Shown in pieces: positions 43,312 to 45,454 of a DNA stretch of 53,154 nucleotides (positions are counted from its first letter, which is position 1; each line of letters starts with the position of its first letter). The notes beneath the pieces are model-generated. The model was not told the DNA's origin and made no database searches. It saw only the letters and a program-made list of their open reading frames with translations. The stretch is from Bacteroidota bacterium (GTDB taxonomy: Bacteria; Bacteroidota; Rhodothermia; Balneolales; Balneolaceae), in the NCBI GenBank assembly GCA_027621355.1, contig JAQCBZ010000001.1, positions 1 to 53,154 on the forward strand, written 5' to 3'. Both the position numbers and the translations under genes were made by a program.

Positions 43312-43329
43312 CTGTGACTATTGTTACAG
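43312..43329 (+). promoter_or_regulatory. Predicted Crp/Fnr-type operator before the TPR/SnoaL-like gene
   Basis: CTGTGACTATTGTTACAG is an 18-bp palindrome with one mismatched pair. Its core TGTGAC-N4-GTTACA matches the TGTNAC-N4-GTNACA pattern of the two sites next to the regulator gene at 44570-45250. The centre is 67.5 bases before the ATG at 43388, close to the 63.5 and 69.5 bases seen for the other two. A TATTTATT box at 43351-43358 would fit a promoter activated from this site. Confidence 0.6.
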
Positions 43330-44561: not shown

Positions 44562-44598
44562 AAAAAAAGCTAGGACTTGACAGTCCTGGCTTTTTTTT
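44562..44598. terminator. Bidirectional intrinsic terminator
   Basis: AAAAAAAGCTAGGACT (44562-44577), loop TGAC, then AGTCCTGGCTTTTTTTT (44582-44598): a stem of about eight base pairs with A/T runs on both sides. It serves the plus-strand exported-protein gene and the convergent regulator gene, whose last codons (to 44570) lie inside the hairpin. Confidence 0.88.
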
Positions 44599-45250
44599 CA
44601 TCTATTTGAGACCCTATGAGCATACATATTTTTCCACGATGAAGGCTTAATGCCCCTGTTTGCTCTAGTTTCTTAAGCGTCCGAGTAACGACCACACGGC
44701 TAGATCCTATCTCCTGAGCAAGCTCATCATGAGTAATCTTAATCATGTGTCCGTTTTTAGGATGGCATGAAATCGTGATAAATTCTTGTACTCTTTGTTC
44801 AACCGTTTTGGTCATGGCGCCACTAAAGCTATTCAAAATCTGGTTGTAACCTTTGGTCATTGACTGAAGAACAAAACGGTTCCAGCTCTCAAAATGATCT
44901 TGCAGGTAACCCACTTCATATACTGGTATACATAGTTTTTTTACCGGCTTAATTGCAACACCCGTCACAGCACTAGGTTGTTTTGTTAGTGCAGCTACAA
45001 GAGATGTTGGACAAGTTTCCCCAGGCTTGACATGGCAGATGACATACTGCTTATCCTTTTGTGCATCGTATCTGTAGAGCCTTGACTCACCTACTAAGTA
45101 TAAAGGTATACGATTCACAGGGTCGCCTTGGTGGATTGCCTTCTCACCCACAGCTTGATTCACGATAGAATAATTGTCAGACAAGTAACCAATGAGACCC
45201 TTATCAAAAGGGAATAGGGATAATCGAGACCATATTTCGGATGGGTGCAT
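44570..45250 (-). CDS. Crp/Fnr-family transcription regulator
   Basis: The 226-aa product has an N-terminal cyclic-nucleotide-type beta roll (about residues 20-125, with QGDPVNRIPLYLVGESRLYR and VKPGETCPTSLVAAL), a long dimer helix (about 128-155) and a winged helix-turn-helix (about 170-215) with THDELAQEIGSSRVVVTRTL as recognition region. There is no N-terminal cysteine cluster, so it is not a classical Fnr oxygen sensor; the ligand is unknown. Two identical palindromes lie in the divergent promoter region and one more upstream of the neighbouring exported-protein gene, which points to autoregulation and a local regulon. Its end overlaps a terminator. Confidence 0.88.
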   Translation of the reverse strand: MHPSEIWSRLSLFPFDKGLIGYLSDNYSIVNQAVGEKAIHQGDPVNRIPLYLVGESRLYRYDAQKDKQYVICHVKPGETCPTSLVAALTKQPSAVTGVAIKPVKKLCIPVYEVGYLQDHFESWNRFVLQSMTKGYNQILNSFSGAMTKTVEQRVQEFITISCHPKNGHMIKITHDELAQEIGSSRVVVTRTLKKLEQTGALSLHRGKICMLIGSQIDEKKARTVKS

Positions 45251-45303
45251 AGGCTAAGTGATTGTAAATGAGTTGTTTAATGACATGCTTTTTGTGCAAC
45301 GCA

Positions 45304-45323
45304 TATGTAACCTAAGTAACATA
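45304..45323 (-). promoter_or_regulatory. Predicted operator 1 (regulator side)
   Basis: TATGTAACCTAAGTAACATA, a near-palindrome (16 of 20 positions equal to its reverse complement; core TGTAAC-N4-GTAACA). An identical copy lies 72 bases away. Its centre is 63.5 bases before the regulator start at 45250. If the regulator activates from position -41.5 as Crp does at class II promoters, transcripts would begin about 22 bases before the ATG. Confidence 0.72.
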
Positions 45324-45333
45324 ATCACAATTA

Positions 45334-45366
45334 TTTAACATCAATTTAACAGCAATTTAACATCAA
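45334..45366. repeat. Three tandem 11-bp repeats between the two operators
   Basis: TTTAACATCAA (45334-45344), TTTAACAGCAA (45345-45355) and TTTAACATCAA (45356-45366) follow each other without a gap; only one base differs in the middle copy. A period of 11 bp is close to one helical turn, so a protein could bind each copy on the same face of the DNA, or the A/T tracts could bend it between the two palindromes. Confidence 0.85.
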
Positions 45367-45375
45367 TAAGACAAT

Positions 45376-45395
45376 TATGTAACCTAAGTAACATA
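45376..45395 (+). promoter_or_regulatory. Predicted operator 2 (exported-protein side)
   Basis: An exact second copy of TATGTAACCTAAGTAACATA. Its centre lies 69.5 bases before the chosen start of the first exported-protein gene (45455). A class II arrangement would place the transcript start near 45427, giving a leader of about 28 bases, which supports the later of two possible start codons. Confidence 0.72.
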
Positions 45396-45454
45396 GTCAG
45401 AATATTTCGTTCTGTTATCATATATGCATGATCGAAAAAATTAACCAAAATGGA

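Follow-up and report, generated by a model that had tools for sequence, protein, structure and literature searches.

A predicted Crp/Fnr-family regulon with paired palindromes at a divergent promoter in an uncultured Balneolales lineage

Among the closest described systems, the HcpR2 branch of the Crp/Fnr superfamily (Bacteroides, Clostridium, Thermotogales) has the predicted consensus GTAACnnnnGTTAC, and a comparative study linked this motif to replacement of Glu181 (PMC1274295). NtcA of cyanobacteria has a GTA-N8-TAC site at about -41.5, combined with a TAN3T -10 box (PMC3898017), and contacts 2-oxoglutarate via Arg128 and Glu133 (PMC6243067). In E. coli, class III sites of CRP are concentrated around -93.5, and in the deoC promoter two Crp sites flank a CytR site (PMC5957442).

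Here, we describe a divergent promoter from a Balneolaceae genome (G000), located in a contiguous stretch of 53,154 bp (the window). What was noticed as an intergenic oddity in this uncultured Balneolales lineage turns out to belong to a predicted regulon, which would include the gene of its own regulator and for which a motif and a promoter geometry can be defined. The regulon is new; its kind is already known. The features of the locus are listed in Table 1.

Table 1. Features at and around the divergent promoter (window coordinates).
Feature	Position	Strand	Remarks
Third regulon site, TGTGACTATTGTTACA	43313-43328		non-identical to TATGTAACCTAAGTAACATA; upstream of an exported TPR/DUF4440-like gene; conserved in G001
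Exported protein, 383 aa	43388..44539	+	predicted regulon member; weak DUF4440 match
Crp/Fnr-family regulator, 226 aa	44570..45250	-	recognition helix IGSSRVVVTR
Palindrome 1, regulator-proximal	45304..45323		core TGTAACCTAAGTAACA, 45306-45321
Three tandem 11-bp units, TTTAACA[TG]CAA	45334..45366	+	
Palindrome 2, exported-gene-proximal	45376..45395		core 45378-45393; about -41.5/-42.5 relative to the predicted start
Putative -10 box, TATCAT	45416..45421	+	30 bases beyond the midpoint of palindrome 2
Exported protein 1, 264 aa	45455..46249	+	signal peptide judged by eye
Exported protein 2, 246 aa	46271..47011	+	

The original prediction reported two identical palindromes in this gap, one near each of the divergent starts, and both points hold. 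The two copies of TATGTAACCTAAGTAACATA start 72 bp apart. This is the only 20-mer present twice in the window, and the 1.5-Mb assembly contains no exact copies beyond these two. When the 204-bp gap is shuffled, even a duplicated 12-mer arises in just 0.7% of the shuffles. The palindromic symmetry of TATGTAACCTAAGTAACATA is imperfect and covers 8 of 10 base pairs. The centre of palindrome 1 is 63 bp from the ATG of the regulator gene, a distance that is identical in a genome from the same genus (G001). G001 lacks the in-frame ATG at 45428, which makes 45455 the likelier start of the first exported gene. With this start, the gap probably extends from 45251 to 45454, as originally delimited. The second exported gene is probably co-transcribed with the first. 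The structure predicted for exported protein 1 has a mean pLDDT of 43.5, which is too low for a fold search.

The regulator has a C-terminal Crp-type helix-turn-helix (PF13545, 37.9 bits, cut-off 27; PF00325, 26 bits, cut-off 21), and its structure model (mean pLDDT 77) matches CRP/NtcA structures with a best E of 3e-14. The helix-turn-helix, together with the modelled N-terminal cNMP-like beta-roll and overall fold, is consistent with membership in the Crp/Fnr superfamily. It is not an FNR proper: the cysteine cluster that holds an Fe-S centre at the N terminus of FNR was not found, there being no Cys before residue 72 of the 226-aa protein. Cys80 is invariant in 47 homologues. The equivalents of CRP Arg180 and Arg185 are kept, and Val replaces Glu181. 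This Val helix occurs in 37 of the 47 homologues; an upstream site was found for 5 of these 37 and for none of the 10 Glu proteins. Laboratory mutants of CAP Glu181 no longer need G at the corresponding position. The regulator is a natural Val181 protein, and its TGTWAC sites can be used to test the residue-to-base rule that has been proposed for the family.

The HcpR2 consensus is the core of the sites found here, with an equal half-site. HcpR2, however, has Pro at CRP position 181, where the regulator has Val, and HcpR2 regulons centre on hcp. This gene (PF03063) was not found in G000, G001, G016, G017, G112, G114 and G115, all of which are represented by incomplete assemblies. We thus rejected both the assignment to HcpR2 and hcp as a target of the regulon. 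The half-site also fits the NtcA consensus, both systems combine a TAN3T box with a site at about -41.5, and the recognition helix of NtcA (IGSTRVTVTR) likewise has Val at position 181. In contrast to NtcA, the targets are exported proteins rather than nitrogen genes, and Arg128 appears to align with Gly (profile alignment, judged by eye). Membership in NtcA was rejected because the NtcA_cyano equivalog model scores 29.8 bits against a cut-off of 244.95. As in class II/III promoters of E. coli CRP, an activator site at -41.5 is accompanied by a second site near -93.5 (the palindromes are 51 bp apart in G001 and 72 bp in G000). The system differs from CRP in its half-site (TGTWAC versus TGTGA), in its cNMP domain (PF00027, 22.9 bits, under the Pfam cut-off of 27.5) and in that divergent promoters share the palindrome pair.

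Three further genomes of the family encode close homologues of the regulator: G001, from the same genus (92% identity), G016 (48%) and G017 (45%). G001 has kept the divergent gene pair and both palindromes, TATGTAACCATAGTTACATA and TGTGTTACTAAAGTAACATA, with one 11-bp unit, which is the outcome of the comparison with relatives that the original prediction had proposed. In G016, the gene order has changed, with one site upstream of the regulator gene and another upstream of an exported gene. G017 has a site in front of the regulator gene. Sites from all four genomes have the common form TGTDAC-N4-GTHACA. Homologues of the exported proteins in G005, G032, G113, G107 and G084, which lack a close regulator homologue, have no site (in G113, the contig begins at the gene).

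This pattern has 10 exact matches in G000 (1 for the reversed control) and 9 in G001 (0 for the control). Only exact matches were used because the one-mismatch list is at control level (37 vs 35). Because the regulator-adjacent sites served to derive the pattern, these few are not independent of it. All sites in G000 are intergenic and precede the regulator gene or genes for exported, lipo- or membrane proteins, and 9 of the 10 have a counterpart in G001. Neighbouring genes code for NIPSNAP-like, SnoaL/DUF4440-like and cupin proteins, a PDZ lipoprotein, an outer-membrane-barrel-like protein and small membrane proteins. In several cases, the domain match is weak and under the curated cut-off. 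The regulon thereby joins uncharacterised exported families (NIPSNAP-like, SnoaL/DUF4440-like, cupin). When second genes are counted, 7 of the 8 members of the exported family in G000 are behind a site. A paralogue of this family in G000 (C23, L120 1866-2582) has no regulon site. A paralogue without a site also occurs in G001 (C10, L121 13-1726), where there are two tandem copies compared to one in G000. Within the window, three matches are found where 0.05 are expected. The third, separated from the gap by the regulator gene, had not been listed originally.

The comparison of site density covered 92 genomes, namely the four that encode close homologues of the regulator, the genus g5 and 79 others. 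The four genomes have 27 sites in 7.2 Mb (3.7 sites/Mb). The 79 others have 129 sites in 278 Mb (0.46/Mb), and there the control is commoner than the pattern. Enrichment is also seen individually (G000, P = 4e-9; G001, P = 6e-8). Genus g5, some members of which have related Val-type regulators, has an intermediate density. Enrichment of the sites is confined to genomes with the regulator or a related type. The regulator had originally been proposed to control itself and the two exported proteins. On comparative evidence, it probably does so, but this scope was too narrow: with at least 10 sites, the predicted regulon extends far beyond two genes.

The promoter geometry was analyzed for 21 promoters, mostly one per orthologous set. 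Of these, 17 have a TANNNT box that starts 28-30 bases past the centre of the palindrome, compared to 2.85 in shuffles (0 of 5000 shuffles were as high), and 12 have it at exactly 29 bases (0.97 in shuffles). The offset is expected from the class II rule, but the TANNNT score was chosen after viewing the alignment, so the P value is somewhat optimistic. With a box at this distance, the palindrome is centred at about -41.5, where class II activators bind. The G001 counterpart of the putative -10 box is TATAAT, 29 bases from the palindrome centre. The regulator's own promoter has no clear TANNNT at class II distance in G000 and G001.

That the palindromes are sites of the adjacent regulator is well supported computationally. 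Based on the sites, their conservation, the regulon and the positional -10 box, all established by computation, we propose the following. A homodimer of the regulator would bind TGTDAC-N4-GTHACA. At palindrome 2, in class II position, it would replace the -35 element and activate the promoter of the two exported proteins, with the distal dimer giving class III-like help. Palindrome 1 precedes the regulator gene and would serve autoregulation. At least eight further sites, scattered over the genome upstream of genes for exported, lipo- and membrane proteins, may be under the same control. The spacer between the dimers would have expanded in tandem, giving the 11-bp units; a unit is about one helical turn, so that the copy number can vary with the dimers on the same face of the DNA. 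We assign a probability of about 85% to this account as a whole.

The palindromes might instead be operators of a different dimeric regulator, with the Crp/Fnr gene merely another target. Adjacency alone is no proof of binding, and few of the many homologues with the Val helix have a nearby site. However, site enrichment tracks close homologues of the regulator across the family, the site stays with the regulator gene after rearrangement, and the motif is of the Crp/Fnr form, as for HcpR2 and NtcA, so that we regard this explanation as very unlikely. Nor do we expect the regulator to be a repressor that blocks polymerase. Operators near the regulator gene are common for repressors, and the palindromes overlap the -35 position, but the tight spacing between palindrome centre and -10-like box in 17 of the 21 promoters corresponds to class II activation. 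A more far-reaching proposal, which we consider improbable, is a redox- or nitric-oxide-linked switch acting via Cys80 on an undescribed envelope-protein regulon, with a shared divergent promoter, occupied by two dimers in a class III-like manner, that the 11-bp array tunes through the addition of whole helical turns. Nitric oxide synthase is present in 3 of the 4 genomes with the regulator, in 5 of 9 from genus g5 and in 4 of the 79 others (Fisher P = 5e-6, phylogeny not controlled). Nitric oxide as the signal of the regulator is only a lead. The nitric oxide synthase gene of G000 has no site. In G115, such a gene (L125 415-2569; PF02898, 8e-140) and an exported gene point away from each other, a site lies in the interval, and this locus adjoins a Crp/Fnr gene with a Val-type helix. 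In G101 (L133 628-2643), a homologous Crp/Fnr gene is divergent from a nitric oxide synthase gene, and there is no match to the site.

The three contiguous 11-bp units between the palindromes are present as first described: TTTAACATCAA (45334-45344), TTTAACAGCAA (45345-45355) and again TTTAACATCAA (45356-45366). The TRF score of 63 is among the highest in the window. Judged by eye, degenerate units (45323-45333 and 45367-45377) extend the register on both sides. The array is not conserved, the congener G001 having one unit, TTTAACATC. The palindrome spacings of 72 bp and 51 bp differ by 21 bp, which is two helical turns; the alignment gap is also 21 bp and spans two units. Relative to the promoter of the exported proteins, the distal site is near -114 in G000 and at -92.5 in G001. 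The units resemble the half-site (TTTAACA vs GTAACA) but are devoid of the key G.

The units had been suggested to bind a second protein or to help two dimers cooperate. A second protein between the dimers, adding repression or a second signal, would be in line with direct repeats whose period is about one helical turn and which lie exactly between two activator sites, with the unit remaining in G001 and with the CytR site between two Crp sites at deoC (PMC5957442). However, G001 has the gene pair and both palindromes with this single unit, which speaks against a conserved second-protein site, and the array is seen in no other regulon promoter (by eye). We consider such a protein unlikely. Cooperation survives in a weaker form, as a helically phased spacer allowing both dimers to serve a single promoter, which is compatible with spacings of 72 and 51 bp (n=2). 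The array looks like a lineage-specific spacer expansion that keeps helical phase, as judged from two genomes only. Two spacings cannot establish selection for helical phase, and chance alone would be expected to preserve it roughly one time in four. Between convergent genes, there is an inverted repeat, AAAAAAGCTAGGACTTGACAGTCCTGGCTTTTTTT, flanked by runs of A and T (44565-44600; by eye, unscored). It looks like a bidirectional terminator.
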